Shown here: positions 19,179-53,315 of the stretch, piece by piece
Layout of the letters: every line of letters begins with the position of its first letter
How positions within the stretch are numbered: the first letter of the stretch is position 1
Virus record (IMG/VR): IMGVR_UViG_3300045957_000043
Coordinates: 1 to 56,144 of that record
DNA: 56,144 nucleotides
Direction: 5' to 3' (one strand)
Origin: a virus
Program-made: the position numbers and the translations under genes
The notes under the pieces: generated by a model
Databases searched by the model: none
What the model was told of the DNA's origin: nothing
Seen by the model: only the letters and a program-made list of their open reading frames with translations

Positions 19179-19260
19179 TGCTAGCAACAATCGTCGTATA
19201 TAGTGGGGGTAAGATACCTGACTATTACATTGTAGGCTTTCTAAGAGAGAAAGGTTTAAC

Positions 19261-25032: not shown

Positions 25033-26229
25033 CTAGGTGTAGGTGACGCAGCTACCGGGGTAGTCAGGGTGACCAGTTCCGATATTGCGGATGTCGTATT
25101 TCCCAAATGACGGGAACGTAGCGTCGTTGCAGTCTGAGTACGATTCGATTTCGAATGCGAAGCACACACCGTCAGCCGGCACGTAGCCCGGCTGCGCCGT
25201 GACTTCGGCAAGGATCGCACTGACGTTAATCGGCACGTAAGTCTGTGTCGGACCACCAAAGGGAGCCCAGCTGTTAGACGGCTGAGCAGTGAGCGTAACA
25301 GACGCGGTGCTCAAAGCCCCGAGACTTAGCGACCCGACAGGCGTTCCGGCGTGACCCCGGATACGGAGCACCATCGTATCGCAATTCCCTAGGGAGTCTT
25401 CCATTGCCTGCAGATGCAGCACACCGGAAGTCGTGTTCGCGGGGATATCCGGCGAGCAAATCAACGGAGTTCTTTGGTTGCCGTTAGTCGGGTCGTGTCC
25501 GACATTCGGTCCTGCCGTCTGCGGTTGTACAGCCCAAGTGGATTCACCCTCGACGCGAGCCAGAATCGTGTTGTTGCAGCTCCCTGCTGGGTTTTCGCAA
25601 CACGTTTCATACGGAATCCAGACGCAGGAGCCGTCTGCGCCGTGGGAAAGTACTTGTTGCTGCGAAGCGATGTACCCAGGAAGTTGCCCAAGCTGCTCGC
25701 ACACGTCACTCTCGCCGCCGCAGAAGTCAGCTTCCCACCGCGCGGAGTTTGCGTTCCAGGTAGCGCAGATACGGTCTGCGCTCAGCGGCGCGGCGTCCTC
25801 CTCTGCCGGGCAGTTGCCGTCCAAGCAGGGAATGAAAATCTCATACGGCTGGTCAGACCGCTCGGTCCACAGTCCAGTACACGGCTCAGCTTCAGCCCAA
25901 AGCGCATAAATACTCGGAGTCGATGACGAGTAGGTCGCGTCGCCACACGTGACGGTTTTGCAAGTGAGTAGATTCTGCGTCGCGTCTGCGGGAATCCCGA
26001 ACGTACCGGCTGCCTCTTCAACTTCCAGATCAGTCATCGGACGAAAGCACTGTCGCTTGGGCAAACCCGTGATCGAGATGTTAGTCTTCTCGCCAACGGT
26101 TTTGATGTTCAGCGGCGGTGTTACTGATAAGCTCTCGCGGAGTTTCGCCGCGATCGCCTTGATCGCACTACCGGAGAGCTTATTCGTGCGCGTCGTGTCG
26201 CTGACTGCAGGTTTCTTGCGGAACACCAT
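25033..26229 (-). CDS. Cys-rich virion-type protein, 398 residues
   Basis: Lies at the distal end of the tail module, coupled to the gene before it (TAATG). 18 cysteines are spread as C-x-x-C and C-C pairs (LTCKTVTCGD, DFCGGESDVCEQ, ETCCENPAGSC). The C-terminal part reads like a beta-sandwich (VGSLSLGALSTASVTLTAQPS). Probably a distal tail or baseplate protein, from position. No homolog is recognised. Confidence 0.7.
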   Translation of the reverse strand: MVFRKKPAVSDTTRTNKLSGSAIKAIAAKLRESLSVTPPLNIKTVGEKTNISITGLPKRQCFRPMTDLEVEEAAGTFGIPADATQNLLTCKTVTCGDATYSSSTPSIYALWAEAEPCTGLWTERSDQPYEIFIPCLDGNCPAEEDAAPLSADRICATWNANSARWEADFCGGESDVCEQLGQLPGYIASQQQVLSHGADGSCVWIPYETCCENPAGSCNNTILARVEGESTWAVQPQTAGPNVGHDPTNGNQRTPLICSPDIPANTTSGVLHLQAMEDSLGNCDTMVLRIRGHAGTPVGSLSLGALSTASVTLTAQPSNSWAPFGGPTQTYVPINVSAILAEVTAQPGYVPADGVCFAFEIESYSDCNDATFPSFGKYDIRNIGTGHPDYPGSCVTYT

Positions 26230-27470
26230 TAAGGGTTAACCACCCAGCTGCTACCAGGAATCTGGTCGGATCGTTCTTCTGAGACGTTCGGAAACACTTG
26301 CGAGATACCGCAGAATGTTACCGTTGCAGTCCCTAAAGGTACAGTTGCAAAATCAAGCGACAAGAGATTCGCGAAGCTCGTCGAGGGGTAGGGCTTCTGC
26401 TCGCACTCGACGCTCTGGATTTCCAAAAAGTGACAGCCGATTTCGCAAGAGGTGTTCGGCTCCCAAGTACCGCCGGCGTCGATGCACGCTTGCTCGGTCA
26501 TCTGTGCAGTGCTGGTATCCGGTAGTGTACACGTGCCTATTGGGTTTTCGCTGCCTTCGCCAAGTGGATTACGCCGCCACGCACGGTTCCAGGCGCCGAC
26601 AACGCCGCTACACGCGCAACCGGCGGCGAGCGTTTCAAACGGGCACTTAGGTACAGTCTTGACGACGAAAATAAACTCAACATCGTAGGTCGGAGTGCAG
26701 TACCAAGTCGGTCGCTCGGTGATCTCCGCGTCAGCCAGCAATACAGACTCGCACGGGAGATTATCAAACATCGGCTCGCTGTTGACGTGGCCCACAGCAT
26801 TGCGGATGGTGTCGTGCGGCACATACGGCAGGTTCGACCAGCGAACCCGGTAAGTCGTTGTGTTGATCGCGATCGCCGGGTTGATATCTTCGTCCGTGAG
26901 GACTTGACCGTCGACGATGTACTCGAAGGACCTACCGGGGAGCGTCTGCACGTCGAGTTCGTTTTCTGTTTCGACCTCGATAAACGTGCAGTTCGCGATC
27001 GCAGGCAGAATCGGCGCGCAATCATCCGGCAGGCATTCGCTGCGCATCCAGATCGGCCAATTCGCAAAGTTCTTGTGCCGGTAGTTGACTGTAATCTCGA
27101 CAAAGCCTTCACCAACTAGCGGCGCGGTCATTAAGTGCGGCACACCGCACGCGGTAGAGACCGTCGTGCAGCAGTTCTGTAGCGGCTGAATCGTGAAGTC
27201 TTCAGGGTAAAGCGTTGAAGTCCCGCCACAGAGATCAGTCGGGCAGAATAAAGCCAGCGGCTTGGGTTCGGCAGCACAGTGTACTGTGCAGTCTTCGTAC
27301 TGCCAGATGCCGAAAATCTCAGTGATAAAGCTTGTAGCATAAAACGCCGGGCCGATGTATTTCATTACCGCCGTGGCGCCGTCTGGATTCTGCGTGAGTA
27401 CCGGGTAGCCCGCCTCGACTTGATAGCCGAACGCAAGATTCCCGATTCGCGAGCAGTCGTTGATCGTCAT
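26229..27470 (-). CDS. Cys-rich distal tail protein, 413 residues
   Basis: Immediately after the tape measure gene, the usual place for a distal tail protein. 22 cysteines, with pairs such as LFCPTDLC, QNCC, AGCACSG and TSCEIGC. Beta-rich throughout, with the segment TTTYRVRWSNLPYV. GGGGGC lies upstream of ATG 27470. The role is inferred from order only. Confidence 0.7.
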   Translation of the reverse strand: MTINDCSRIGNLAFGYQVEAGYPVLTQNPDGATAVMKYIGPAFYATSFITEIFGIWQYEDCTVHCAAEPKPLALFCPTDLCGGTSTLYPEDFTIQPLQNCCTTVSTACGVPHLMTAPLVGEGFVEITVNYRHKNFANWPIWMRSECLPDDCAPILPAIANCTFIEVETENELDVQTLPGRSFEYIVDGQVLTDEDINPAIAINTTTYRVRWSNLPYVPHDTIRNAVGHVNSEPMFDNLPCESVLLADAEITERPTWYCTPTYDVEFIFVVKTVPKCPFETLAAGCACSGVVGAWNRAWRRNPLGEGSENPIGTCTLPDTSTAQMTEQACIDAGGTWEPNTSCEIGCHFLEIQSVECEQKPYPSTSFANLLSLDFATVPLGTATVTFCGISQVFPNVSEERSDQIPGSSWVVNP

Positions 27471-27471
27471 G

Positions 27472-30400
27472 TTAGACTAAGCCCCCTAGTTGATCAGGCG
27501 CGCGGCGCGCAAATTCAATGCCTTGCGCAAGAGCAGAAAGCTCCCGCTGAATCGCCGCGATGCCGTTGGCAGTGCGTTCTTGCTGCTGGAGCATTTTGGT
27601 TTCTGTAGTCACGGACTGCTGTAGCTGATTGCGAAAGTCAATGATTCCGAAAATCTGTGAGCGAACTTGCTGTGCGACGCTGTTGATGTCCGGCTCGGGC
27701 GCCGGTGCGCCTTGCTGCTGGCTGCGCTGCTGTTCGCGCTCCTGCTGAGCTTTTAGGCGGGCTTCCTCTTCAGCTTTGATAATCTTCTCGCGTTCGGCGA
27801 GTTCTTTTCGGTAAGCATCCGCACGGCGGTCCAGCTCGCCCTCTGCGATCCTGAGCTGCAGTTCGTTAGACACGGCATCCCCGAAGAACGTTAGCAGTTG
27901 ATCTTCGAACCCGCCGAGTAACTGGGCAGCGATCTCCGGCGCGCGGAACGGGTTACGGATCGCGTCGGTGATCCTTGCGATTACTCTGAAAGTGTTGTCC
28001 GCGAGTGCTTTCGCAAAGTTGATCGCGACACCGACCAGCTCGTAGCCAAAAGCTTTCGCGCGATACACCGCGATGTTAAACACCAGCTCGAAGTTATCCG
28101 CTAAGAACGTGATACCCTCGATCAAGCTATCGAAATTCTCGATACGAAACGCACGCTTGAGCCTTGTTTCGAGTTCTTCAAGGGCTGGCAGGGCTACCGC
28201 GCTAAGCCTGCGGAAACCCTCAGTCAACCGGATAATTGCGACGCCGTTGATGACCGACAGAATGCTAACGAGCCGCTGCCCCGCAGCGACGATCGGTGCG
28301 AAAAACTCAGCCGCGCGTCCGCTTTGGACAAACTCTTTGATGCGGTCGATCACGAGAGTAACCGACGTGGCTACGCTCTCAACGAACCGCGCGAATGCGG
28401 GGTTCTCACGGAGAAACCCGATTGCCTTGCCGATCTCCAGGCCGATCGTGCGGAATACACCTAAGAAGTTAGCGGCAACCTGCCGTCGCAATAGAGTAAA
28501 CTGATTGCCGAGTGTAGTAACGACACCGCTAAGTGATTCAGCCTGCAGTACAGCCTGCTCGAAAAACTCACTAAACGCCTGATCGCCTACGGCTTTAATA
28601 AACTCGCGGGCAGAAATCTCGTTATTGCGAAGAGCCTCTGTCAGAGCCTCCCCAGATTTACCGATTGCGCGTTCGACCAAGCCGATCGCACCGGGGAGAC
28701 CCTCGGTGAGCTGGTTGTTAAGTTCTTCGCTACGCAGTACACCCTTCGAGATCACTTGCTCATAGGCTCGAAACACGCGGTTCAGGTCGCTGGTTTCGAC
28801 ATTCAGGACGCGGGCGGCGGCAGCTGTGCCCCGGAAGAGCTGGAAAATTTCGTCTTGCGGAACACCTGAGTTCTTCGCGGCGGCTGAGATTTTACCGTAG
28901 AGATTCTCGATCTCGTCCAGCGGCACTGCCAGTTGCAAAGCCAACGCCTGGATTCTTTGTAGCTCTGCCTGGGAATCTGCCCCGAATGCAAAGCTAAACC
29001 TCAGCCTGATATCTTCGAGCCGCTGTGCAGTCTGGAATAACGCACGAGTTGCTAAGCCGCCGACTGCCGCTGCAATGAGCGGGAGATTCGCAACTAGATT
29101 GCGAATGCCTCGGGCCAGAGCGATCGTCGGACCTAGCGCGAACGTAACCGCACGAGTGAACGCGCGAAATGCAGTTCTGGCTACGAAGAGTAACGCTTGG
29201 CCTAGTGCACGGGTTGCGGCGACTAAAGCCTGTAGCCCCACCAAACCGCCGACTACCAACGAGCCGATACCCACTCCCGCTAGACTTGCAGCTGAACCGA
29301 CAAGCCCTAGGTTCTGAAACACCCGGACGGCAGACAGTCCGACACGGCCCAGCGCTGCCGCGTAGTTACCGATTCTGCCGCTGGCTGCGCCTAAGTCGAA
29401 GCCGAGCTGACGGATACTCGTGAGTGTAGTCTGGGCCTGCCGTGCTCGTGCGCCCTCGATCGTGGCGAGTCTCGTAGTGACCTGCAGCTGCAGCCGCAAG
29501 ATTCGCAAGCGTTGCTCGGATGTGATGTTTTGCTGCTCTAGTTGAGCCTGCACCCGTCGTTGGATCAGCGTTAGCCGCAGTCGTTCGTCGACGGCACCTT
29601 TAGCCCGCAAGACTTCTTCTCTTTGCTGGTTAAGCCGTTGTCGCTGGTCACGGGCTTGACCGCGACTGATTTCACGTTCCCGCTGCGCGTCTCGTTGGCG
29701 GCGCACCGCGCGGGCTCGGCGGTCACGGGCGGCTTGCTGCACTTGCGTGCGGTTGGTCACCCGTAACAGCCGAGCTTCCGGTGATGTGTCCTCGCGGGCA
29801 ATGCGCTGACGCTCTTTCGCGGCTTCCCGCAGGGCGCGTTGCTCTCTTGCGCGAATGAGGCTTCTTGCTTTTGCGTTACGCTTGAGCTGTTCCAGTTCAG
29901 TCCGCGCAGTGACTCGGGCCAGCCGAGCTTCGATCGAAGTTCCGGTGCGACGCAGTTCGCGCTGTTGTTCTCTTTCGCGTCGTCGACGGAGCGATCTAGC
30001 TCGTGCATCGCGGCGGACCTGCTCGATCTCGGCGCGCTGGGCTAATCTCGCTCGTCTGCCTTCCAGGCTGGTAGACTGCAGCAAGGCTCGCTGCCGTTCA
30101 CGCTCAGCGCGCTGAACTTCACGAGCTTGACGCCGTAGTGTAGCCAGTTCCTCGCGGGCAATCTGGTCGCTGACTTTCTTGCGGCGCGCAGCAAATAGCC
30201 TTCGAGCCAAGATTCTTCGAGCTAGAATTTGCTCTTCAGTTCTCGCGGCAATCCGCTCTCGGCGAGCTTCGAGGGTGTCGGCCCTGACTTCAGTAGGCTG
30301 GCGTGATCTACCAACGCGCGTTGTAGAGCTAGATTCCTGCCGGGCCTTTTGGACAGCGCTAGATAAAGCTGCAGCTCCCGTCGCGGCGACGGTAATCTTC

Positions 30401-30507
30401 TGCTTGCCGAGCCGCTTGCTGATCTTCTCCAGCTCGCGGAGCTGCTTGAAGACTTCTTCTAAGCCTTGCGCGCGAACCGTGATGAAAGTCGATAGCAGCT
30501 CAAACAT
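27472..30507 (-). CDS. Tail tape measure protein
   Basis: 1011 residues from ATG 30507 (GGGAGG upstream), the longest gene. Residues about 80-330 are an Arg/Glu-rich coiled coil. Hydrophobic segments follow (about 390-490). A tape-measure signature block comes next: LEDIRLRFSFAFGA, LALQLAVPLDEIENLYGKIS, SEELNNQLTEGLPGAIGLVERA and EISAREFIKAVG. The C-terminus is helical with a Gln-rich linker. It sets tail length; at roughly 1.5 angstrom per residue a tail near 150 nm would be expected (general rule). Confidence 0.9.
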   Translation of the reverse strand: MFELLSTFITVRAQGLEEVFKQLRELEKISKRLGKQKITVAATGAAALSSAVQKARQESSSTTRVGRSRQPTEVRADTLEARRERIAARTEEQILARRILARRLFAARRKKVSDQIAREELATLRRQAREVQRAERERQRALLQSTSLEGRRARLAQRAEIEQVRRDARARSLRRRREREQQRELRRTGTSIEARLARVTARTELEQLKRNAKARSLIRAREQRALREAAKERQRIAREDTSPEARLLRVTNRTQVQQAARDRRARAVRRQRDAQREREISRGQARDQRQRLNQQREEVLRAKGAVDERLRLTLIQRRVQAQLEQQNITSEQRLRILRLQLQVTTRLATIEGARARQAQTTLTSIRQLGFDLGAASGRIGNYAAALGRVGLSAVRVFQNLGLVGSAASLAGVGIGSLVVGGLVGLQALVAATRALGQALLFVARTAFRAFTRAVTFALGPTIALARGIRNLVANLPLIAAAVGGLATRALFQTAQRLEDIRLRFSFAFGADSQAELQRIQALALQLAVPLDEIENLYGKISAAAKNSGVPQDEIFQLFRGTAAAARVLNVETSDLNRVFRAYEQVISKGVLRSEELNNQLTEGLPGAIGLVERAIGKSGEALTEALRNNEISAREFIKAVGDQAFSEFFEQAVLQAESLSGVVTTLGNQFTLLRRQVAANFLGVFRTIGLEIGKAIGFLRENPAFARFVESVATSVTLVIDRIKEFVQSGRAAEFFAPIVAAGQRLVSILSVINGVAIIRLTEGFRRLSAVALPALEELETRLKRAFRIENFDSLIEGITFLADNFELVFNIAVYRAKAFGYELVGVAINFAKALADNTFRVIARITDAIRNPFRAPEIAAQLLGGFEDQLLTFFGDAVSNELQLRIAEGELDRRADAYRKELAEREKIIKAEEEARLKAQQEREQQRSQQQGAPAPEPDINSVAQQVRSQIFGIIDFRNQLQQSVTTETKMLQQQERTANGIAAIQRELSALAQGIEFARRAPDQLGGLV

Positions 30508-30739
30508 GCTTGCCTCCCTTATGCAGCTGGGCGAATCCGGCAAACTTTCGCATTAGAGCTGCTTGCGCGTCTTTGATTTCTGCCTCGGAGGGTTTTTCTC
30601 GGTAGCCGAACATCAACAACCGATCGTAGTCACTCATCGAGCGAATGTAGTCCAAGGTCCATCCGGTTTCGCGGGCTAAGCCTGCGTAAGCTTCTTCGAG
30701 TGTCACCCGCTGCGTTCCTTCGCCGCTGGGCGGGATTAG
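30500..30739 (-). CDS. Tail assembly chaperone, T extension made by -1 frameshift
   Basis: A frame of 68 residues (from GTG 30706: TLEEAYAGLARETGWTLDYIRSMSDYDRLLMFGY) runs open upstream for 11 more codons to the slippery site at 30739-30745. Tape-measure chaperones of the G/GT type encode the T part exactly this way. The fusion would be about 227 residues. The W-T-x-x-Y-I-R motif is typical of T domains. Whether the GTG is also used alone cannot be told. Confidence 0.85.
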   Translation of the reverse strand, partial: LIPPSGEGTQRVTLEEAYAGLARETGWTLDYIRSMSDYDRLLMFGYREKPSEAEIKDAQAALMRKFAGFAQLHKGGKHV

Positions 30740-31182
30740 TTTTTTGCTGCTTGGTGCGCCTCGTCTGCTACGCTCATTACGATTGTGAATAGCTTGTCGA
30801 GATTCCCGTAGGCGTTCATGACTTGCTTGGCTTCTTCTACAGTGTCAATCTCACGGACTGCACACTGCAGTAAAATCGCAAGCGCTTCAGTGTCGCCCTT
30901 TACGAGTAAATCAAAAGCGTCTTCAGCGCCGAGCTGCGTATCTTTTCGTGAGTCAGCTAGAATCGCTTCAGCAAAACTACGCTGGGCCGCTTCGGGGAGC
31001 GACCCAGCGTAATCAGCGAAGTCCTTGATTGCTTCCTGTCTCGCTTGGCGGTGCCGGTATTTGAGCAGCGCGACTAGCTTGTCTAGTGCGTACTCGCTGA
31101 GCACGTTACCGCCTAAGTGATACGTGCGATCTTCGCCGTCGATCGTAACTTTGAAGTACTCGCCTTTTGGTGCCCCACTCAT
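30736..31182 (-). CDS. Tail assembly chaperone (G product)
   Basis: 148 residues from ATG 31182 (GGAGAGA upstream). It has an N-terminal beta-rich region with FKVTIDGEDRTYHLGG, then helices (LDKLVALLKYRHRQARQEAIKD, DTVEEAKQVMNAYGNLDKLF). It lies directly before the tape measure and ends at the slippery site. Expected to coat the tape measure protein during tail assembly. Confidence 0.85.
   Translation of the reverse strand: MSGAPKGEYFKVTIDGEDRTYHLGGNVLSEYALDKLVALLKYRHRQARQEAIKDFADYAGSLPEAAQRSFAEAILADSRKDTQLGAEDAFDLLVKGDTEALAILLQCAVREIDTVEEAKQVMNAYGNLDKLFTIVMSVADEAHQAAKN
30739..30745 (-). promoter_or_regulatory. Programmed -1 frameshift slippery heptamer A-AAA-AAC
   Basis: Reads GCA-AAA-AAC-TAA in the zero frame at the very end of the 148-residue chaperone gene. 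It is a perfect X-XXY-YYZ heptamer in phase, and the -1 frame joins the T frame without a stop. Downstream CCCGCCCAGCGGCG could form a stimulatory structure. Confidence 0.85.
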
Positions 31183-31207
31183 CTACTCTCTCCAAAAAAG
31201 GTTCGTG

Positions 31208-31873
31208 TTAGTTGTCCGAAGGCTTCGGTGCGGCTTTCAGGCCGGCTGCCACGAGCGGCGCGGGTGTAACACCGTCCGTACCGCCAACCGCGACACAAGT
31301 ACCGGAGTTGTCACCGATCACGTCGCTCTTGCTATACGGGAGGTACGGGCCGTTAGTGACATCAATCAGCCACTCGGCTGTCGAGACATCCTGACCTTCG
31401 TTCGTGGCGCCGAAGCCCGGAGGCGAGACCTGACCGTACAGGTAAATGCCTGCTTCGTTGGTCGTGTAGCCGCCGTCGATCAGCGTTGACATATCGGTGA
31501 CTGATGGCAACCAGCCCTGACCGCCGCAACCAGCTTTCAGATACCCAGGGTCAAAACCCAAGAAGAACCAAGTCGTCGCACCGACGCTCGGGTATCGCGG
31601 GTCGTCTAGGATATGGCAGTACAGCCAATCATCGCCGCACAGTGTGTTGGTGACAGTAACCTGCCACTGCAGTTGGTCAGCGCAGAACTTAATCGCCTGC
31701 CGACAAGTCGAGCTGGTTTGCTTTCGCGGGGCTTCCTGGCGGTTGGGATCGAGTTCCCAAGAATCAACGTGTTCCAGGAACGTCCAAGCAGTTACGTCGG
31801 TGTTGTCTGCCGGGTTGGTCGTGGCGACAAATACCGAGAAAATGCCTGGGCACAAGCATGAATCAGTAGCCAT
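31208..31873 (-). CDS. Probable major tail tube protein
   Basis: 221 residues from ATG 31873 with GGA upstream. It lies just before the chaperones, the standard place for the tube protein. Sequence is beta-rich with Gly/Thr/Ser repeats (VFVATTNPADNTDVTAWTF, GIYLYGQVSPPGFGATN) and 9 cysteines. Assigned by gene order and composition; no signature motif is seen. Confidence 0.65.
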   Translation of the reverse strand: MATDSCLCPGIFSVFVATTNPADNTDVTAWTFLEHVDSWELDPNRQEAPRKQTSSTCRQAIKFCADQLQWQVTVTNTLCGDDWLYCHILDDPRYPSVGATTWFFLGFDPGYLKAGCGGQGWLPSVTDMSTLIDGGYTTNEAGIYLYGQVSPPGFGATNEGQDVSTAEWLIDVTNGPYLPYSKSDVIGDNSGTCVAVGGTDGVTPAPLVAAGLKAAPKPSDN

Positions 31874-31938
31874 ATTGGTGTTTTCCTCGTTGCCCCACAA
31901 CAAAGTATCTAGCTAGGTACTATCTGTATTCTAGGCAC

Positions 31939-32391
31939 TTAACACAGGGGTTCGACGACCCAGAACACGAGCGTCGCCTGCGTCATCCAAAGGCATTCTG
32001 CAGCCTGGACGCTACGCGGGCGCCCGGAGAGCCGGTTGTAGCAAGCTGGGCCGAGATTCGTCATCAAACAGCGTTCAGCTTGCAGTCTTGCGCGGGTATC
32101 CTGCACGATCGCTTGCCCGGCATGACTTGAAGTCGTGAACACGCGCAGCCTCACGGCAACCTGATAACGCACAGCCGTGAAGCCGATTCGCTGCCCGGCG
32201 GGTGCGTTTTGCTCTTCGAGCACAGCATACGGCACACGGGGGCTGTTATTGCTTGCTTGCGAATCACACTTGCGCGCAAGGCCCCCGGTGTAGACTTCTG
32301 CCGCGCCGGCGAGACTTACCTGCTCGGCAATTAAGTCTTCCAGAGTGCAGTCCGTGAGGTCTTCAGTGCTGGGAGTACAGGCAAACGTCAT
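31939..32391 (-). CDS. Tail terminator / completion-like protein
   Basis: 150 residues from ATG 32391, overlapping the upstream TGA (ATGA). Middle strands (GFTAVRYQVAVRLRVFTTSS) and SHAGQAIVQDTRARLQ fit the alpha/beta tail terminator fold. Placed between the gp10-like protein and tube protein as in HK97-type phages. Six Cys. Moderate confidence. Confidence 0.6.
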   Translation of the reverse strand: MTFACTPSTEDLTDCTLEDLIAEQVSLAGAAEVYTGGLARKCDSQASNNSPRVPYAVLEEQNAPAGQRIGFTAVRYQVAVRLRVFTTSSHAGQAIVQDTRARLQAERCLMTNLGPACYNRLSGRPRSVQAAECLWMTQATLVFWVVEPLC

Positions 32392-32774
32392 GCAGTGAGA
32401 TCCTCTACAATCTGCGCGCGGATCTGATCGAGATCCTCGAAAAAGCTATCGTAAATCCCTAGGCGGTTTTGTAGTTCCGCGAGCCACTCCAGGTGCGTGC
32501 CACCACGAGTTTTGTGCGGAGGTCTCTGGATTCCTTGGTCCGGGCCGGGCATTCCTGCGCGCCCTTCGAGCTTGTTATTCGGGTTCACTGCCGAGAAGAT
32601 CGAATCCCGGCCTTGCCCGGTTCGCACAGCCGGGTACTCGCCTTCGTTTGAACTGGGGGGCCAAAACTTGGCCCCAACTTTTTCGCGGTAGCCGTCGGCA
32701 ATCTCGTCGACGGCGATTTCGACGGCTATCGCGAGGCGGTCTTCGATAGCTTTCTGTACTTGGGCGAGCGTCAT
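32388..32774 (-). CDS. HK97 gp10-like neck / tail completion protein
   Basis: 128 residues. N-terminal helix, then GEYPAVRTGQGRDSIFSAV, matching the P-x-x-x-T-G-x-L-R-x-S-I motif of gp10-type proteins. ATGA overlaps occur at both ends. Probably part of the head-to-tail connector. Confidence 0.75.
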   Translation of the reverse strand: MTLAQVQKAIEDRLAIAVEIAVDEIADGYREKVGAKFWPPSSNEGEYPAVRTGQGRDSIFSAVNPNNKLEGRAGMPGPDQGIQRPPHKTRGGTHLEWLAELQNRLGIYDSFFEDLDQIRAQIVEDLTA

Positions 32775-33373
32775 ACCCGGTCCTCCCAGCCGAAGGGTGC
32801 TTCTCTCGCCACAACTTGAGCCAGTTGCTTAACGTCACATCGGGTCTCGATTGAGTCGACCACGTAGGTAGTTTCTTCGCACTGTACAAAGTCTCCGGGA
32901 CGCACGTTGATGTTCGCGCCGAAGCAGATTTTCACGGTGCTAGTGCATACTTCGGCGTCGTTTACGATCTGAGTTTCGAGCTTCTCTTCGCAGATAGAAA
33001 TCGGCACGTCGGTCGCCAAGTCGGTTGCGAAGACTTCTGTGGGGCAGTCTTCACCAGGAGCACGATACACCCGGACTACTGTAGCTAAACAGTCCGGGCA
33101 ATCGAGCACTGGTCTTGCTAAAGAAAGCACGAGAGTGCACGCCGCGAACTGGACACTTGAGATCAGATAACTAATCTCGTCGTGGATTGCCGTGTCCCCG
33201 ATTCGCGGGGGGTTCTCTTCAGTGTAGTCGCAGCTCGTGAAGACCGCTTCGATGAAGCTGCACGGCTGGGTTTCGCTTTTGGTGACTTGGTACTCATAGA
33301 GAAACCCTTCGACCTGGACTTCTGTGCCCGTGCACTCGGTGATCGTGAGTTCCTGCGTGCAGTAGCAGCTCAT
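32771..33373 (-). CDS. Cys-rich head-tail connector protein
   Basis: 200 residues from ATG 33373 (ATGA overlap with 33370). It has two similar halves, each with ...PRIGDTAIHDEISYLISSVQ and ...VRPGDFVQCEETTYVVDSIE, an internal duplication of a beta-strand unit. 14 cysteines. Gene order suggests a head-closure or connector protein. Confidence 0.65.
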   Translation of the reverse strand: MSCYCTQELTITECTGTEVQVEGFLYEYQVTKSETQPCSFIEAVFTSCDYTEENPPRIGDTAIHDEISYLISSVQFAACTLVLSLARPVLDCPDCLATVVRVYRAPGEDCPTEVFATDLATDVPISICEEKLETQIVNDAEVCTSTVKICFGANINVRPGDFVQCEETTYVVDSIETRCDVKQLAQVVAREAPFGWEDRV

Positions 33374-33810
33374 GGGTTGCAGCAATCTCCGGTAGTGCTC
33401 GCCTCTTCAGTGCTGCCAAAGCAGCTGCACTGGTGGAGATGAAACCGCTCCCGGACGACATACGTGCCGCAGCCGTCGCACACGACCCGTGCAGGCTCAC
33501 ACTGCGGGGCGCCGCAGCGGTCAGACCAAATCGTCTGAAAAATCACGTCGCCTGTATCTTCTCGCTCGCAAATCTCGAACGTGAGCTGCACGAGCTGCCG
33601 CAACTGGGCAATCAGCTGGCTGGGGTCAGCAAACCGCACATCACCGATCGAAACCGGCTTGCAGAGTGCCGAGCTGCTACACATGAGCTTCGCGATCTGA
33701 TCGAGGGCCAACGCGCGGATCACGCAAGCTTGCTCGCAGCCGCAGCCCGAGATCAGGTTAATGTTGTCTAAACACTCTTCGAGCGTCGGCGTGGTGCAGT
33801 CATGAGCCAT
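33370..33810 (-). CDS. Very Cys-rich connector protein
   Basis: 146 residues with 16 cysteines (about 11 percent), in patterns such as SGCGCEQAC, RCGAPQCEPARVVCDGC and HLHQCSCFG. The helical N-terminal half (VIRALALDQIAKLM, LIAQLRQLVQLTFEIC) resembles head-tail adaptor proteins. The C-terminal half (CGAPQC...CDGC...HLHQC) could bind zinc. First gene of the leftward tail module. Confidence 0.65.
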   Translation of the reverse strand: MAHDCTTPTLEECLDNINLISGCGCEQACVIRALALDQIAKLMCSSSALCKPVSIGDVRFADPSQLIAQLRQLVQLTFEICEREDTGDVIFQTIWSDRCGAPQCEPARVVCDGCGTYVVRERFHLHQCSCFGSTEEASTTGDCCNP

Positions 33811-33833
33811 GAATCGCTCGCTTGGGTTTTCTA

Positions 33834-33898
33834 GGGAAAAAAGCAGGGTGAGCCGCCGCCTTCACGGTGGGGCGGACGCTACAGCGACAGCCCACCCT
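33834..33898 (-). terminator. Terminator-like hairpin upstream of the connector gene
   Basis: AGGGTG-GC pairs with GC-CACCCT (33890-33898 with 33845-33853), with an internal G/C hairpin between. On the minus strand it is followed by GCTTTTTT. It would stop leftward transcription coming from the capsid/fibre block and implies a new promoter nearer to 33811. Confidence 0.5.
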
Positions 33899-33955
33899 AT
33901 TAGTATTTTAGGCTTGGCTTGTCCGTGCCCCAGGACTTGAGTAGACTAGGCTACT

Positions 33956-34147
33956 ATGAACCGAGTTTCCGAGCCGCAGCTTGAACACCAGATACAAACC
34001 ATCGAATCGCGTCTGCACGCAAGTTTGGTCCCTAGCGGGTTTAGAGAGACCGTTGTTGCCGAAAGACTTCTTAACAGCCTGATGCAAGCGGCTTACCCTG
34101 TCCACAAAGAACTGCAAGCCCTGTTGGTCGATCATGCTAACGAGTAG
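33956..34147 (+). CDS. Small leader gene of the methylase unit
   Basis: 63 residues from ATG 33956 (EPQLEHQIQTIESRLHASLV... LNSLMQAAYPVHKELQALL), helical and coiled-coil-like. It overlaps the methylase start by 14 bases. No clear ribosome site. It may mainly couple translation to the methylase. Confidence 0.5.
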   Translation: MNRVSEPQLEHQIQTIESRLHASLVPSGFRETVVAERLLNSLMQAAYPVHKELQALLVDHANE

Positions 34148-34934
34148 CAAACCCCTAAAGTGGCACGGCGGCAAACACTATCTCGCTCGCAAAATCATTG
34201 AGCTAATGCCCTCACACGTCCACTACGTGGAGCCGTTTTTCGGTGGTGGGAGTGTCCTTTTCGCGAAACCCTACGAAGGCGTCAGCGAAGTGATCAACGA
34301 CCGCAACGACGAGCTGGCTAACTTCTGGCTGGTTTTGAGCGACCCGGATCTGTTTGCTGACTTTCACCGCCGTGTGAGCGTTCTGGGCATGTCCGAAACC
34401 CTCTGGAAAACTGCCTGGGAGGGGTCTCCCGTGAAGCGAGCGGTTGCGTTCTTTGTGAAGTATCGGCAGAGCCGGCAAGGGCTTGGCAAAGACTTTGCAA
34501 CGCTGTCTCGCAATCGCACGCGGCGCGGGATGAACGAACAGGCTTCTAGCTGGCTCTCAGCAGTCGAAGGGCTGCCGGAAGTGCATTCCAGATTGCAACG
34601 AGTTGTCGTGCTCAACCGCGATGCCCTTAACGTGATCCACCAACAAGACGGTGAGCAAACGCTCTTCTACCTCGACCCCCCGTATTTGCACGAAACCCGT
34701 GTAACAACTAACGAATACGGCGAGCACGAGATGGTCCGCGAGGACCACGAAAAGCTACTAGAGCTGCTTCTCCAAGTGCGGGGTAAATTCCTGCTTTCAG
34801 GCTACCCGAGCGAGCTGTACGCTCAGTTTGCGACTGAAGGCAACTGGCGGCGGGTCGACTTTGAGATCGACAACAAGGCCAGCTCACGAGCCCGCAAGCC
34901 CCGCGTCACCGAGTGTGTCTGGCTAAACTACTGA
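34134..34934 (+). CDS. dam: DNA N6-adenine methyltransferase, D12/Dam class
   Basis: 266 residues. N-terminal PLKWHGGKHYLARKI and YVEPFFGGGSVLF form the S-adenosylmethionine site. LFYLDPPYLHE is the catalytic D-P-P-Y motif near residue 180. The order of motifs matches Dam-type enzymes. Target is probably GATC by family, but specificity is not visible. It may protect phage DNA from host restriction or mark packaged DNA. It is the only rightward unit inside the virion block. Confidence 0.9.
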   Translation: MLTSSKPLKWHGGKHYLARKIIELMPSHVHYVEPFFGGGSVLFAKPYEGVSEVINDRNDELANFWLVLSDPDLFADFHRRVSVLGMSETLWKTAWEGSPVKRAVAFFVKYRQSRQGLGKDFATLSRNRTRRGMNEQASSWLSAVEGLPEVHSRLQRVVVLNRDALNVIHQQDGEQTLFYLDPPYLHETRVTTNEYGEHEMVREDHEKLLELLLQVRGKFLLSGYPSELYAQFATEGNWRRVDFEIDNKASSRARKPRVTECVWLNY

Positions 34935-35460
34935 CGCGCAAGATTGCGGCGACGGGGATCACAGCGGCTTTGGTGAAGTCACCTGGACCGCCGTAGACGA
35001 GCCCGACCAGCTTACCCTCGAAATAGACCGGCCCGCCGCTGTGACCGGGCTGGCTGGCGAAACCGCACTGGTAGTTGCCCGAGTTGAAGAACAGCTCGAC
35101 GCTGCCTTGCTTGGTGGCGAATTCTCCGCGCGGAAACCCTTCGCTGGTAACCCGGTCACTGGGTAAAGGGGTATTACCGATAGCTACAGGCGTCAGCGTC
35201 GCAGCGGACTTTAATACTGCCACGTCTAGTTTCTTGTCTATTTGCAACACGACTGCAGTGTAGTGCGTGTTTATTGTTGCTTCGGGCTTTTCGCCCGCAG
35301 CCCACCCGTGCGCGCAGGTTGCAATCAGCTGCTCGCCGTCAAGCGTGCCGATACAGACGCCGGTCAAGACGCCGGCGTCTGGGGTTTCGATCTTGCACAC
35401 GTGCGGGCTTTGCCCAAAAGCCTGACAGGCCATGAGGAGAATAAAAACAAAGCACCGCAT
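34906..35460 (-). CDS. Exported trypsin-like serine protease
   Basis: 184 residues with a signal peptide (CFVFILLMACQAFGQ). Catalytic triad visible: H51 in ATCAH, D79 in KKLDVAVL, S141 in GHSGGP. Length covers a single chymotrypsin-fold domain. Its 3' end overlaps the methylase 3' end (convergent). Unusual for a phage. May act on the host surface during release or entry. Confidence 0.85.
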   Translation of the reverse strand: MRCFVFILLMACQAFGQSPHVCKIETPDAGVLTGVCIGTLDGEQLIATCAHGWAAGEKPEATINTHYTAVVLQIDKKLDVAVLKSAATLTPVAIGNTPLPSDRVTSEGFPRGEFATKQGSVELFFNSGNYQCGFASQPGHSGGPVYFEGKLVGLVYGGPGDFTKAAVIPVAAILRVSSLARHTR

Positions 35461-35478
35461 CGGTGGTCCTCGCTTTTC

Positions 35479-36118: not shown

Positions 36119-36137
36119 GACAATGGCCCCTAATTGC

Positions 36138-38451: not shown

Positions 38452-38453
38452 GG

Positions 38454-38789
38454 CTAGCAGCCTAGGCTACCTGAAGCTACCAGCGTGTCGCTCGCGGCGG
38501 GCGCGCCGCCGGCCCTGATAAACACGCTGTAGCACATGCACCCCGGCAACGCCGGTAAGTCGATTGAGTACCAAGACTCGTCGCCTGAGAGCGGCGTGCC
38601 GGTCTCTTCAGTCAACAGAGCTGAACTGTAGTTAGCCCGGCTCGGGTCACTGTAGCTACCGTCGAGCTGGCTCGTGTTGAAGTTGTAGTGCTGACTGCCA
38701 TCGCACAGACCCGCGATAGCGTAAAGATTCTGTCCAGCAGCCGCGCGGGTCGCAACAGTCGAGCATTTTGTAATTTCTGCGTTGTGCAT
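38454..38789 (-). CDS. Small virion-type protein, 111 residues
   Basis: ATG 38789 behind AAAAGGTAAG. Beta-rich, Ser/Gly/Ala-rich (SQHYNFNTSQLDGSYSDPS) with 5 cysteines. Placed between the beta-helix fibre and the glycosidase. Probably a fibre accessory or chaperone-like protein. Confidence 0.6.
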   Translation of the reverse strand: MHNAEITKCSTVATRAAAGQNLYAIAGLCDGSQHYNFNTSQLDGSYSDPSRANYSSALLTEETGTPLSGDESWYSIDLPALPGCMCYSVFIRAGGAPAASDTLVASGSLGC

Positions 38790-38802
38790 GACTTACCTTT
38801 TC

Positions 38803-40476: not shown

Positions 40477-40696
40477 GTTCTCTGCTTCTCCAGTTCTCGA
40501 TCGCCCAGCTCGCCGTCGCACAAGCCACTGTAAGGCCGAGATACGTAAGAGCGAGCGATTTTGCTTTGTCAACTTCACACGGTCCGGTGTAGAGCCCTGC
40601 CGGGGGCTGCGGTACTTCAGGCACAAAGGCGTAAAAGCCGCCGAAAGCTAGGCTCAGCCCCACGAAAAAGGCAGTGATCGGCGATACTTTAATCAT
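40469..40696 (-). CDS. Two-helix membrane protein, holin candidate
   Basis: 75 residues from ATG 40696 (GGAGT upstream). Helices at about 7-26 (ITAFFVGLSLAFGGFYAFV) and 48-66 (ALTYLGLTVACATASWAI), ending with charged NWRSRERA. Size and topology fit a class II holin, but no lysin is adjacent. Confidence 0.6.
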   Translation of the reverse strand: MIKVSPITAFFVGLSLAFGGFYAFVPEVPQPPAGLYTGPCEVDKAKSLALTYLGLTVACATASWAIENWRSRERA

Positions 40697-40740
40697 AGGT
40701 ATCTACTCCGTTGCTGCCGGAATGCGATCCCAACCATAGG

Positions 40741-42132: not shown

Positions 42133-42213
42133 GAGTGTTTAGTTCCTTGTGTCGCTGGGGCTGTTTTGTTTGACTGCACTACGCTTACTTAACTAGCTAA
42201 ATAGCCTGCTAGA

Positions 42214-45030
42214 TTAAGGCCAGACCGGTGCTTTGTGTCCTTCACGCACACTGCACTGGATCGTGCCGTCGTACTCCACTCGCCAGCTCAGCACTACGCC
42301 TTTGGTGTTGTCATTAGTCAAGATCCAAGCCGGCACGTTCGGTGCGGTGTCCGCGTCCGGGCCGAAGTCCCAGAGGCTACCCCAAGCCGGCGGGAAACTT
42401 GAGCCTTGCACAAACACTTGTCCGCTGTCGCCCGGCGAAGCGTTCGTGAGATTCGCGACAGTTCTCCCGCCAGCCAAGAGTTGGGGCAAAAACGCTTGTG
42501 GGCCAAGCGACACGTCGTACACAATGCTCGTCTGTGTACGGTCCAAAACCTGATAGCTCGGTCCTGCCGCGACGCCGCCCGTATCACAACACAACTGCGT
42601 GACAGTCAGGCTACCGCTAACAGAGTCAATGCAAGTGTGATACTTGAGCGACAGAGCACCCGGAGACGTGTAAATCAAAATGTCGCCAGACTGTTGCGGC
42701 GAAGCATTTGCCGCGTACCAAACCAGAATCTCGTTGTTAGTCGGAGCTTCTGGATCGCCGAACGATAAACCGCCGCCCGAGTTATCAATCGTGTAGCACT
42801 TGTCTTTCGGCAGCGAGTGATACTCGCCGGCATCATCCGTGTAGCCGAGAATATTCCCGTTCGCCCCCGTGTTATCCGAAACGAGCGTGAACTCGCTTGC
42901 GGTTGTGCTCCACGTCGCGGGGTCAACAAACGGACCGGCAGCGGCTTGGTTAACGCAGCAAGCATCGAGTCCTGTTGTTTGGATCAAGCTGGCATTGCCG
43001 TCGTCGTCCACGAAGTACCGATAGGTAGTCCCGTCGCCGTGGTCGTACTCAAGGACTGTTGGCCCGGAAATATTCTGTGCAGTCACATAGCTTTCGGCTT
43101 CTGTGACAACCAGCGGACTTGTGAAGCTACCGCCGGGGACCGTAGCGATCGGCGAGAGACAGCCTTGGATCGCTGCGCAGATATCAACCGTGACTGTAGT
43201 GCCGTCACCGTCGTTATGCACAATGGTGCCGTCGGCTAAGCCGTTTGCGCCGGTGTTGTCTGTGAGTACAGAAACACTACCGGTATCTACACCTGTAGTC
43301 TGAATCAGGCTCGCGTTACCGTCGTCATCCACGAAGTACCGATAAGTAGTCCCGTCGCCGTGATCGTACTCAAGGACTGTTGGCCCGGAAATATTCTGTG
43401 CAGTGACGTAGCTCTCGGCTTCTGTCACGACAAGCGGACTCGTGAACGTGCCGCCGGGGACCGTAGCGATCGGCGAGAGGCAGCCCTGGATTGCCGCACA
43501 CACGTCTACCGTGACTGTAGTCCCGTCACCGTCGTTGTGCACAAACGTGCCGTCGGCTAAGCCGTTCGCACCAGTGTTGTCGGTAAATACACTGACGGCG
43601 CCCGAGCTGATACCTGTAGTTTGGATTAGGCTCGCGTTACCGTCGTCATCCACGAAGTACCGATAAGTAGTCCCGTCGCCGTGATCGTACTCAAGCACCG
43701 TCGGTCCAGAGATACTCTGGGCCACGACGTAGCTCTCGGCTTCTGTCACGACAAGCGGACTCGTGAACGTGCCGCCGGGAACTGTTTCGATCGGTGACAG
43801 GCAGCCTTGGATCGCCGCGCAAATGTCGATGGTGACCGTAGTCCCGTCGCCGTCGTTATGCACAATCGTGCCGTCGGCTAAGCCAGTCACGCCAGTGTTG
43901 TCGGTCACTACAGACACCGCGCCGGCGCCGCCGCCTACCGGGACAGAACCGACACAGCTCTCGGTCATGACCGTGATATTCAGGTTCACGCCGTCACCGG
44001 CAGCGGTCACGACTTGATCAGAAATCGAGCTACCTGCAGGCAGAATCTCGCCGTCCAAGATGCTCGTCATGTCGAGCCGCGTCTGGCCAGCCGGCAAAAT
44101 CCACGGGTCTGCTGGGTTGACTACGCCACCAGGACCAGGAAGCAGCGTCGCCGAGCCGGGGCTCGTACCCGCCGCGATCCACATGAGGTGGAACTCGATA
44201 TCGCTCGCCGAAGTGCCCGTAACTTCCGCCCAAGCGCCCACAATGGTCTCTGAGGTGTTCGGGTTGACCATCGTGGAGTCAGAAGGCGTCGGTACTGAAC
44301 CCGAATCAACCGTCACGCTGCCGACTTTACCGACGGTGGTTTTCGTCCGCATACACACGCCGGGCAGCGGGTGCTCAACGCCGTTTTCGTCGACGTAGCC
44401 TACAAGGTACTGCACGGTGTCGTCGGGATTCTCGTAGAAGACGAACGTGTGGTTCGCAGACGGATTGGCCGCTGTAGCGCCCGCCGGCCAAGTGGTGGGG
44501 TCGTTAACGTCAACTAGCCCGCCGACAGTTGCTTCGATAGTGAAGTCGCAGCAGTTCTCGCCCGGCACTCGTAGTACCGTGACGTTGCCGTCATCATCTA
44601 CACCGTAGCGATATAGCCCGCCAGAACCGTCGGTGTAATCGATAAATGTCGGGCCAGAAGGCGAGCCTGCAGCTGCGTACACCGCAGCCAGATCGAGCGG
44701 GTCAACCAGACTCCCGGTCGTTACTGTAGCGATCGGGTCAAGGCAGCCTTGGATCGCCGCGCAAATGTCGATGGTGACCGTAGTCCCGCCGCCGTCGTTA
44801 TGCACGATCGTGCCGTCAGCTAAGCCGTTTGCCCCGGTGTTGTCCGTAACTACACTAGTAGCTCCCGTCGCCGTGATCGTCACGCTCAACGGGTCACCGT
44901 TAGTCTGCTGCAGCGTTAGCAGGCCCGTTTCGCTGGTGTAAACTAGGTCTGTGTTGCAACAGCCGTCGCCGCCTCCCCCGCAAGAATGCGCAACGTAACT
45001 ACTGCCGGGGGGAATTTGTGAGCCTGCCAT
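42214..45030 (-). CDS. Repeat-containing tail fibre/structural protein
   Basis: 938 residues from ATG 45030 (GGAG upstream). The module TDNTGANGLADGT, VHNDGDGTTVT-DICAAIQGC, ISGPT-LEYDHGDGTTYRYFVDDDGN occurs about four times. Three copies are nearly identical at 107 residues (321 bases) and one is more diverged toward the N-terminus. Gly/Asp/Thr-rich, so a repetitive beta structure is expected. The last part (SYQVLDRTQTSIVYDVSLG) differs and may be the tip. Likely elongated fibre. Confidence 0.75.
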   Translation of the reverse strand: MAGSQIPPGSSYVAHSCGGGGDGCCNTDLVYTSETGLLTLQQTNGDPLSVTITATGATSVVTDNTGANGLADGTIVHNDGGGTTVTIDICAAIQGCLDPIATVTTGSLVDPLDLAAVYAAAGSPSGPTFIDYTDGSGGLYRYGVDDDGNVTVLRVPGENCCDFTIEATVGGLVDVNDPTTWPAGATAANPSANHTFVFYENPDDTVQYLVGYVDENGVEHPLPGVCMRTKTTVGKVGSVTVDSGSVPTPSDSTMVNPNTSETIVGAWAEVTGTSASDIEFHLMWIAAGTSPGSATLLPGPGGVVNPADPWILPAGQTRLDMTSILDGEILPAGSSISDQVVTAAGDGVNLNITVMTESCVGSVPVGGGAGAVSVVTDNTGVTGLADGTIVHNDGDGTTVTIDICAAIQGCLSPIETVPGGTFTSPLVVTEAESYVVAQSISGPTVLEYDHGDGTTYRYFVDDDGNASLIQTTGISSGAVSVFTDNTGANGLADGTFVHNDGDGTTVTVDVCAAIQGCLSPIATVPGGTFTSPLVVTEAESYVTAQNISGPTVLEYDHGDGTTYRYFVDDDGNASLIQTTGVDTGSVSVLTDNTGANGLADGTIVHNDGDGTTVTVDICAAIQGCLSPIATVPGGSFTSPLVVTEAESYVTAQNISGPTVLEYDHGDGTTYRYFVDDDGNASLIQTTGLDACCVNQAAAGPFVDPATWSTTASEFTLVSDNTGANGNILGYTDDAGEYHSLPKDKCYTIDNSGGGLSFGDPEAPTNNEILVWYAANASPQQSGDILIYTSPGALSLKYHTCIDSVSGSLTVTQLCCDTGGVAAGPSYQVLDRTQTSIVYDVSLGPQAFLPQLLAGGRTVANLTNASPGDSGQVFVQGSSFPPAWGSLWDFGPDADTAPNVPAWILTNDNTKGVVLSWRVEYDGTIQCSVREGHKAPVWP
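42971..43933. repeat. Three 321-bp tandem repeats within the fibre gene
   Basis: Units begin at 42971, 43292 and 43613, each opening CCTGT(T/A)GT(T/C)TG(G/A)AT. Landmark CACGAAGTACC recurs at exactly 321-base spacing (43009, 43330, 43651). Third-base differences show the copies are not brand new, while long identical runs suggest gene conversion. Confidence 0.85.
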
Positions 45031-45054
45031 TTACTACACTCCAGTGGTTTGTTT

Positions 45055-45483
45055 TTAGCCGACGAGTTCAGCTGTCAACGGATCGGGGCCGTTCTTGACG
45101 TTCCAGCTGCTACGGGTGCGTTTGCGGAATTCAGAAATAACCTGGGTCGCTTGGTTCCTCTGATCGAAGTCCGACCAGACCGTATACCCCACAGGTTCGC
45201 CGTCTCCGCCGAGATATCGCTTGTCGCGGACGACCCACTTGTGCTTCCCAGCGGATCGGCGTTCGGCTTCGATGCGTGCAAGAATCTTGCCTGCTTTGTG
45301 TTGGTGCTCTTCGAGCGTCGCCATCTGACCCCCGATCGACGCCACGCGCAAGTTTTGAATTTCAAGCTGCTCTTCCAGCTGTTGAATTCTATCTTCGAGT
45401 TGTTTTTGCTTTCCGCTTGCACGGGCGCCAGAAACAAGGGTGTTAGTTTCGTTGGAGACTGTAGTTTCAGTGGTTTTTGCCAT
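45055..45483 (-). CDS. Coiled-coil virion protein, 142 residues
   Basis: ATG 45483 with GAGGG upstream. The N-terminal coiled coil (QKQLEDRIQQLEEQLEIQNLRV... GGQMATLEEHQHKAGKIL) precedes a small charged domain (WVVRDKRYLGGDGEPVGYTVWSD). It lies between the capsid and fibre genes. Role unknown; perhaps a linker or decoration protein. Confidence 0.7.
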   Translation of the reverse strand: MAKTTETTVSNETNTLVSGARASGKQKQLEDRIQQLEEQLEIQNLRVASIGGQMATLEEHQHKAGKILARIEAERRSAGKHKWVVRDKRYLGGDGEPVGYTVWSDFDQRNQATQVISEFRKRTRSSWNVKNGPDPLTAELVG

Positions 45484-45511
45484 AGTTTCATACCCTCATC
45501 TGATTAGACAA

Positions 45512-45539
45512 ACAGGCTCAGATTTTACCCTGAGCCTGT
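45512..45539 (-). terminator. Terminator after the capsid gene
   Basis: ACAGGCTCAG (45512-45521) and CTGAGCCTGT (45530-45539) are a perfect 10-bp stem with an 8-base loop. On the minus strand it is followed by TTGTCT. It ends the leftward packaging/capsid transcript. Confidence 0.7.
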
Positions 45540-45577
45540 CTACTCTTTATCGTCGTAGTCACACCCCACGACGAGCG

Positions 45578-47134
45578 TTATTCAGTCGGGATTGCAGTCC
45601 CGTCCGCGTCAAGCGTGTTGTCGAACGCTCGCACCAAAACCGTCAGCCAAGGACGCAATGGAGTGAACGCCGCCATCCGCTCGTAACGACGCGCGAACGT
45701 AATCCCGCGATCAAAGTAAGCCCACGTGTTCGTTCCGCCGAACTCGCGGGTTGATACGTCGAAGTCGACCACTTGGCCGAACGTCGAAGTGAAGCTCTTG
45801 CTGACCAAGTACGTGTTCTCTGCCCACAACTCTGCGGTGCGGAGTGCAAGGTCCGGGTCTGCGATCCTGTCAGCAACCGTACCGTTGCCGTCGCCGTCGT
45901 AGCAGTTCAGGTAGAAGTCAACCAGGATGTTCCACATCCATCGCGACCACTTCACAACCGGGCTCCAGCCGTCACGCGATGACATATTGACGCGCCGTTC
46001 TGCATTGCAGCCGTTGTACGTGCCGCAAGTCGTCAGCAAGTGCGAGCCGATCGCACGTTGGTACTGCTCAGCTTTGCACCTTCGAGTCATCATCACTTGG
46101 TACTCGCCACCGCAGTCAACCGGCATTCCGGTCATCGGGTCGCAAGCGCCCTCGAAGACTTGCTCGATCGCGCAGTACGGCGGGCAAGTGCAGTCCGTCC
46201 AAGCCAAATCAGGGTCTTGCAGGACGTTCACCCAGGGGCCGTTATCCGCAGCCGTCAACCACATGGATTCGTATGTTACGTTGTCGTACGTGTACGGATA
46301 CTGATTGCAGCCCGTCTCGCAGCTCAACGCATCAAACGCCCAGCGGATAAAGTTCCGCTCGTCAATGATGTCAAACCATTGGCGGCGACGGTCGATTTCG
46401 CGGCGCATTTCGGCGTCTGCATCCAAGCAGGCGATATTCCGGTGTAGCGCGAATGCAAAGTGAATGTAGCAGGGCCGTCCAGGCTCCCAGCAACGTTCTT
46501 TGCCCAGCCCGTAAAACTGCGCCGGGTCGTCTTCGTTCGTGTCGTTGCAACAGAACTCAGGCGGCATATCCAGCGGCATTTCGCAAATCTTGCGGTCGAC
46601 ATACCGCGAGCACGGCATATCCAATCGCGAATAGCAGTCTTGAGTTGCCGTAGCAGCCGGCGGACAAGTGAAGTCCGACATAATCCGGGTCTTGCAACGC
46701 TCTCGGAAGCTATCAACGTAGCTCGCGGTGATCGGCACAATCCCGTCGCTTTCGGCCAAGATTCGATCCAGGTCGTTCGCGATCGAGATGTCGTAGCTCG
46801 GCGTGTGATGACGCATATGCGTCGTCACCAGCTTGTCGAACACCTTATCAAACTTCGTGGTTTTACACGCTTTGTCGGCTTCCTCGATGAGCTGTTCGCT
46901 GCGCGCGTTGCTCAAGCCGGGGCGACCTTCATAAAAAGCGTTGTACATCGCGTCGGGCATCAACTGCTCGAACACCATGTTATAGTCAACGTCATTGATG
47001 TTGTACGTGCCTTCCGCACAAGCATCTTTGAGTTCATCAAAGGCTTCGTTCAGGGTCTCATCGTTGACTTGACCCTTCGCTGCCTTCTCGAACTCCTCCG
47101 TCAGGAAGTCGTTAATGTTCTTCTTTTTGGGCAT
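45578..47134 (-). CDS. Probable major capsid protein, cysteine-rich
   Basis: 518 residues from ATG 47134 (AGGAGA upstream). Called from position: terminase, portal, protease-scaffold, a small protein, then this gene, ending at a strong terminator. N-terminal helical region (FLTEEFEKAAKG... AFDELKDACA) could be a delta-domain. 23 cysteines, many in short pairs (CCND, LSCETGC, TDCTCPPYC, TTCGTYNGC), which is extraordinary for an HK97-fold protein. No family match is recognised. Confidence 0.7.
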   Translation of the reverse strand: MPKKKNINDFLTEEFEKAAKGQVNDETLNEAFDELKDACAEGTYNINDVDYNMVFEQLMPDAMYNAFYEGRPGLSNARSEQLIEEADKACKTTKFDKVFDKLVTTHMRHHTPSYDISIANDLDRILAESDGIVPITASYVDSFRERCKTRIMSDFTCPPAATATQDCYSRLDMPCSRYVDRKICEMPLDMPPEFCCNDTNEDDPAQFYGLGKERCWEPGRPCYIHFAFALHRNIACLDADAEMRREIDRRRQWFDIIDERNFIRWAFDALSCETGCNQYPYTYDNVTYESMWLTAADNGPWVNVLQDPDLAWTDCTCPPYCAIEQVFEGACDPMTGMPVDCGGEYQVMMTRRCKAEQYQRAIGSHLLTTCGTYNGCNAERRVNMSSRDGWSPVVKWSRWMWNILVDFYLNCYDGDGNGTVADRIADPDLALRTAELWAENTYLVSKSFTSTFGQVVDFDVSTREFGGTNTWAYFDRGITFARRYERMAAFTPLRPWLTVLVRAFDNTLDADGTAIPTE

Positions 47135-47146
47135 CAGTGAGTTCTC

Positions 47147-47710
47147 CTAGCAGCGCCCGGCGTCGAAGGCGAGCAAGATGCAACGCTTCGTAGGCCGGGT
47201 GATCGAATTCAAGAGGGTCGGGCTCACATCAGCCGGGGCAGCCGGGTCAGGCGGGCACGACAACCGTTGCTGACAGTTACACGCACACTCTTCGACTGCT
47301 TCGAGAATGCCAGTACCGTTCGCAACAACAATTGTGTTGCTAACGAACGTGACTGCATTGACCGTCTCAGTCGCAAAAGTGTATTTCTCGCCCGGAATGC
47401 TCGCTACCGGAGTAGCGGTCTGCATTTCCACCCAACCGCAGCTGGCGATCTGTACCGTATGGCACTCGCCAGCTTCAAAGGTTTCAACGGTGAAACCAAC
47501 AAAGTTATCGACCGCCAAGCTAAGCGTTACCGCCGAGCTAAACGGGCGAACCGCGCTGGTCACGGGATCTTGGAACATGGGCGTTCCGCCAAGCGGAATC
47601 CCAAATGCCGGGTCAACCAAGTACTTGCGCAGACTGCAGGGTCCGCAAGTCCGGCGGATCTTGTTGCAAGTCAAATTGCAACTGCCGTCGTCAAGGCATT
47701 TCAGGCTCAT
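47147..47710 (-). CDS. Cys-rich head protein, possible decoration/stabilisation protein
   Basis: 187 residues from ATG 47710 (AGGAG upstream). Cysteines cluster at both ends (KCLDDGSCNLTC, RRTCGPC; EECACNCQQRLSC), with a beta-rich middle (SAVTLSLAVDNFVGFTVETF). 13 cysteines. The place between protease and capsid genes suits a decoration protein, as in many HK97-like phages. Confidence 0.65.
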   Translation of the reverse strand: MSLKCLDDGSCNLTCNKIRRTCGPCSLRKYLVDPAFGIPLGGTPMFQDPVTSAVRPFSSAVTLSLAVDNFVGFTVETFEAGECHTVQIASCGWVEMQTATPVASIPGEKYTFATETVNAVTFVSNTIVVANGTGILEAVEECACNCQQRLSCPPDPAAPADVSPTLLNSITRPTKRCILLAFDAGRC

Positions 47711-50261: not shown

Positions 50262-50265
50262 CATT

Positions 50266-53314: not shown

Positions 53315-53315
53315 A

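Follow-up and report, generated by a model that had tools for sequence, protein, structure and literature searches.

A cysteine-rich shell, neck and tail in an uncultivated tailed phage: conserved residues that most likely lock the particle by disulfide bonds

The conserved cysteines in the virion proteins of an uncultivated tailed phage most likely lock its particle through disulfide bonds, judging from its genes and their relatives. The phage is IMG/VR virus record IMGVR_UViG_3300045957_000043, and the window, i.e. the whole stretch of DNA that was analysed, covers its positions 1 to 56,144 (56,144 nucleotides). Cysteine makes up 5.38% of eight shell, connector and tail proteins, compared with 0.72% of seven interior and assembly proteins and 2.50% of the replication and other proteins. 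The proteins were sorted into interior and exterior by their annotation once the counts had been seen; a sister clade then repeated the contrast, with 3.71% in the shell, connector and tail proteins and 0.40% in the interior and assembly counterparts.

Cysteine-rich and cysteine-poor virion genes

The 518-residue protein with 23 cysteines at 45578..47134 (minus strand) is the major capsid protein (MCP), with an HK97 fold. Its AlphaFold model is of moderate confidence (pLDDT 56, pTM 0.57), and the top Foldseek matches of this model are HK97-fold capsids (best E 1e-4); with VIA, nearly all of the matches listed are phage capsids or encapsulins, with Z up to 10.1. An HMM made from 40 related Phage_capsid_4-type MCPs of the outgroup described below matches the protein at E 4e-7, while shuffled sequences give at least 0.45. 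The gene comes after the portal and protease genes, in synteny with the sister clade. Searches of the protein against Pfam and against the phage collection gave no match. Its cysteines are clustered, 21 of 23 falling within residues 140-415 (p 1e-4, for an interval picked after the positions had been seen).

Adjoining the capsid gene is that of a 187-residue protein with 13 cysteines (47147..47710, minus strand), a candidate capsid decoration (cement) protein. Its model, also of moderate confidence (pLDDT 57), has a beta core; decoration proteins or capsid entries from Pam3, P74-26, SHP/P21 and lambda match it best, at E about 0.02-0.08. As modelled, the candidate, which has Cys-rich tails at its N and C termini, would resemble decoration proteins of the lambda D type. 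Its gene's place beside that of the capsid agrees with such a role, and such a fold would place it on the outside of the capsid. One outgroup decoration protein, its homologue, matches PF09956 (Phage_cement_2); by sequence, the 187-residue protein is only marginally linked to the decoration proteins of the outgroup.

The neck candidates are a small head-tail connector of 146 residues with 16 cysteines (33370..33810), gpW-like in position and size only, and a head-tail connector with 14 cysteines (32771..33385), which has 204 residues in the longest ORF and 200 from an internal ATG. Most cysteines of the former sit in its N- and C-terminal regions. The tail candidates are a terminator (150 aa, 7 Cys, 31939..32391), a major tail (tube) protein (231 aa, 8 Cys, 31208..31903), a distal tail protein encoded directly after the tape measure gene (413 aa, 22 Cys, 26229..27470) and a tail or baseplate protein assigned by position only (398 aa, 18 Cys, 25033..26229). 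All six of these genes lie on the minus strand. PHROG and Pfam searches with the Cys-rich proteins gave no confident family, profile searches against solved structures with the small connector and the tube candidate gave nothing useful, and a homologue search with the 398-residue candidate found none.

A sequence-only reading of this DNA had counted 23 cysteines in 518 residues, 13 in 187, 16 in 146, 14 in 200, 22 in 413 and 18 in 398, and these counts hold when the genes are translated. Its capsid, connector and tail assignments find support in fold, synteny and homology. The tube candidate and its 150-residue neighbour, both Cys-rich, were not listed there. The description of the virion as Cys-rich fits the shell, neck and tail but not all of the particle. 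The tape measure protein (1023 aa, 27472..30543, minus strand; PHROG 2335, E 1e-25) has a single cysteine, and the portal protein (519 aa, 48723..50282, minus strand; PHROG 21, E 5e-13; PF05136) has three. Cys-poor as well are a head-tail candidate of 128 residues (32388-32774) and a 142-residue protein (45055-45483), both with none, and a 148-residue protein (30736-31182) with one. The terminase large subunit, TerL (491 aa, 50266..51741, minus strand; PHROG 38, E 6e-82), contains nine and the prohead protease or scaffold candidate (321 aa, 47722..48687, minus strand) six; one outgroup homologue of the latter has weak matches to head-maturation-protease PHROGs.

Some other genes were noticed by inspection of translations. 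A DNA adenine methylase-like gene on the plus strand (34134-34934) lies between the minus-strand head and tail genes. A papain-like (23012-24052) and a trypsin-like (34906-35460) protein candidate have N-terminal hydrophobic segments, and weak homologues of the former occur in the sister clade. The ORFs at 53015-53449 and 2703-4177 contain low-complexity repeats (SF-rich, PAPQPALQ-type) and may not be genes.

Compared with the base composition of their own codon positions, the six proteins counted in the earlier reading carry between 1.8 times (518 aa) and 3.6 times (204 aa) the expected cysteine, with z 2.8-5.1. The 150-residue protein reaches 2.4 times and the tube candidate only 1.3 times the nucleotide expectation; tape measure and portal fall below it. 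Across about 80 TerL-related IMG/VR loci, the 708 long ORFs have a median cysteine content of 0.66%, and no more than 1.8% of them reach 4%. The replication proteins, at 2.5%, are less enriched than the Cys-rich virion proteins, as had been claimed. Primase, polymerase and the gene at 14561-15697 have 1.7-2.1 times the nucleotide expectation, and 2.5% is itself raised against one Manatee Spring phage (polA 1.4%, helicase 0.9%, primase 0.25%). Part of the virion excess may therefore be lineage-wide.

The cysteines had also been described as often paired. The same six proteins together have 4 C-C, 7 C-x-C and 3 C-x-x-C motifs, where permuted sequences give 6.2, 6.4 and 6.2. If CxxC departs from chance at all, it is towards rarity, and the capsid, 413-residue and 398-residue proteins have none. 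As permutation gives no excess, the paired motif was dropped.

Conservation in a sister clade and gain from Cys-poor ancestors

Single-protein scans with the MCP and TerL gave no close relatives. The sister clade, IMG/VR phages including L216-L218, was reached by a second TerL alignment. These three have the head genes in the same order as the phage, and the identities are about 40% for the MCP (E 1e-111 or lower), 38-40% for the portal, 45% for the protease, 29-31% for the decoration protein and about 30% for the protein after the MCP. Further members were found, including two of 56.2 and 56.5 kb. The sister tail regions encode proteins related to the tape measure and to the 148-, 231-, 128-, 146- and 413-residue proteins, with 36-39% identity for the tube orthologues; counterparts of the 150- and 200-residue proteins were recognised mainly by position.

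The proposed survey of related phages for the same cysteines supports their conservation. Of 58 cysteines in the sister clade, the phage has kept 36 (62%), compared with 478 of 1612 other residues (30%; Fisher p 5e-7), and among the twenty residues cysteine ranks first in retention and histidine last (2/18). Retention is strong in the capsid (12/14), the small connector (7/8) and the decoration protein (5/7), with 4/6 in the tube, and weak in the 413-residue (3/11) and 200-residue (3/7) proteins; for the small connector, the tube and the 413-residue protein the comparison is with a single sister orthologue. In the sister clade, the small connector orthologues have 8-10 cysteines in 96-97 residues, the terminator counterpart has 5-6, the positional counterpart of the 200-204-residue connector has 7 at about 20% identity, and the tape measure orthologue has none in 1235 residues.

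Scans with TerL and portal alignments gave more distant relatives, in which the genes are ordered TerL-portal-protease-decoration-MCP. The capsid family of this outgroup turned up in 80 genome contigs, mostly MAGs and nearly all named as Planctomycetota in their titles, and one of the capsids matches PF25209 (Phage_capsid_4). These planctomycete proviral elements share with the phage a related MCP and the packaging and head gene order, but their capsids contain 0-4 cysteines in about 375-450 residues, against 23 in 518. Since all 80 outgroup MCPs have 0-4, the cysteines were most simply gained in the lineage of the phage and its sister clade. Outgroup decoration proteins mostly have 0-3. For the distal tail protein, sister relatives have 9-13 and outgroup homologues 0-1. 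In the capsid, 17 of 23 cysteines fall at columns common to the outgroup. In the decoration and distal tail proteins of the phage, cysteines are more closely spaced in insertions and tails peculiar to the lineage than they are in the core.

From these relatives, the host is probably a planctomycete bacterium. Searching 392 planctomycete genomes with the phage MCP gave weak partial matches only, and the clade MCP profile found no clade member in them, so the host assignment draws on the outgroup only. In the outgroup contigs (L097-L176), portal and protease genes often adjoin the capsid gene, and the element may be a gene transfer agent, a prophage or what is left of one after domestication. 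A related phage, L096, encodes a 351-residue tail-region protein with 17 cysteines (10174-11226), though its capsid protein has only 4.

Disulfides, metal or a Cys-rich proteome

The sequence-only reading had offered disulfides or metal. Of these, the disulfide part stands as the best explanation, from the conservation of the cysteines, their restriction to shell, neck and tail and the precedent of phage Milano, and the metal part is weakened. Cysteines binding zinc, iron or iron-sulfur, either to stabilise folds or to store metal in the particle, would agree with the many conserved positions and with the few CxxC pairs present in the 146-, 187- and 204-residue proteins, and some phages do carry Fe-S clusters in tail-tip proteins. 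However, CxxC falls short of expectation (3 against 6.2) and is missing from the capsid, 413- and 398-residue proteins, the capsid cysteines are scattered along the chain, and the poor retention of histidine makes mixed Cys/His sites unlikely. Metal binding is thus improbable, and disulfides are preferred because the cysteines are conserved and confined to shell, neck and tail while CxxC is short and histidine unconserved.

The richness could also be a side effect of the phage lineage or the host having a Cys-rich proteome, through codon or amino-acid usage or relaxed constraint, leaving mostly free thiols. The non-virion proteins, at 2.5%, are indeed about twice or more as rich as the corresponding Manatee Spring phage genes. 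A general bias is however hard to reconcile with an about sevenfold difference among the virion proteins of one genome, found for the same genes in two lineages, with contents of up to 3.6 times the nucleotide expectation in some genes but less than expected for tape measure and portal, and with cysteine positions being the most conserved; we regard this explanation as rather unlikely. It was further suggested that an exported thioredoxin-like protein may be connected with the virion cysteines. The candidate (18816..19262, minus strand) matches PF00085 (E 1.3e-6) and has a CPPC motif and an N-terminal hydrophobic segment, as expected of a membrane-anchored or exported protein, and with its aid intra-chain disulfides only might be made at an oxidising site. 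The link is unsupported, as a search of four sister records, which have the same Cys pattern, gave no thioredoxin domain. To our knowledge, moreover, structural proteins of tailed phages carry no signal peptides, and their assembly is cytoplasmic. We consider the intra-chain explanation very improbable.

We suggest that disulfides lock the particle as follows. In both the phage and its sister clade, many cysteines would have been gained by the virion proteins that make up the shell (capsid and decoration protein), neck and tail. On leaving the reducing cytoplasm these would oxidise to disulfides within and between subunits, and the resulting virion would be covalently locked and robust both mechanically and chemically. 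The Cys-rich termini of the decoration protein and the small connector are probably cross-linking arms to neighbouring subunits. The totals in the capsid (23) and decoration (13) proteins are odd, so at least one cysteine in each would be unpaired or inter-chain. Oxidation state, bond partners, timing, benefit and the opening of the particle are what we infer here. It can be speculated, as a tentative and rather doubtful extension, that a single disulfide network, denser than that of Milano, joins capsid, decoration protein, neck and tail tube, that it was gained in one lineage of phages of planctomycetes, and that reduction at or inside the host opens it.

If disulfides are confirmed, this would be a second, apparently unrelated phage lineage with a disulfide-armoured virion. 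Such armour would then count as a general way of stabilising particles, and one would have to ask how they open on infection. The combination of a Cys-loaded shell and tail with a Cys-poor portal and tape measure is a testable signature in the sequence, for which other phages can be screened.

Comparison with phages Milano and T1

Among the papers searched, we found no planctomycete phage and no other phage with a Cys-rich siphovirus particle. In T1, a siphophage, inter-ring disulfides are reported along the tail tube (PMC11945409). T1 and the phage described here share a non-contractile tail and a tube protein with cysteines, which form disulfides in T1 (PMC11945409); the cysteines here load the shell, neck and tail, whereas in T1 the reported bonds run along the tube.

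The closest likeness in working is to Milano, a myophage of Agrobacterium with sheath and collar, which has 1.4% cysteine overall and 2.1-2.4% in structural proteins (PMC10491603, PMC10811340). Cryo-EM and mass spectrometry revealed extensive inter-chain disulfides that cross-link neck, collar, capsid and tail, and the particles are weakened and fragile with DTT (PMC10491603, PMC10811340). In Milano and its relatives 7-7-1 and OLIVR4, as in our phage, the structural proteins are Cys-enriched over the rest of the proteome, the enrichment is conserved in the clade, and capsid, decoration or linking proteins, neck and tail are all involved (for Milano: PMC10491603, PMC10811340). The Milano capsid is one of many HK97-fold structural matches to the capsid model in Foldseek, and the particle is likened to Milano in its working, not claimed as related by descent. 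Milano has proven disulfides, while the phage described here is known from its genes alone, with a siphophage-type gene set and 5.4% cysteine in eight proteins. This density is about twice that of Milano, a rough figure, since eight selected proteins are compared with all Milano structural proteins.
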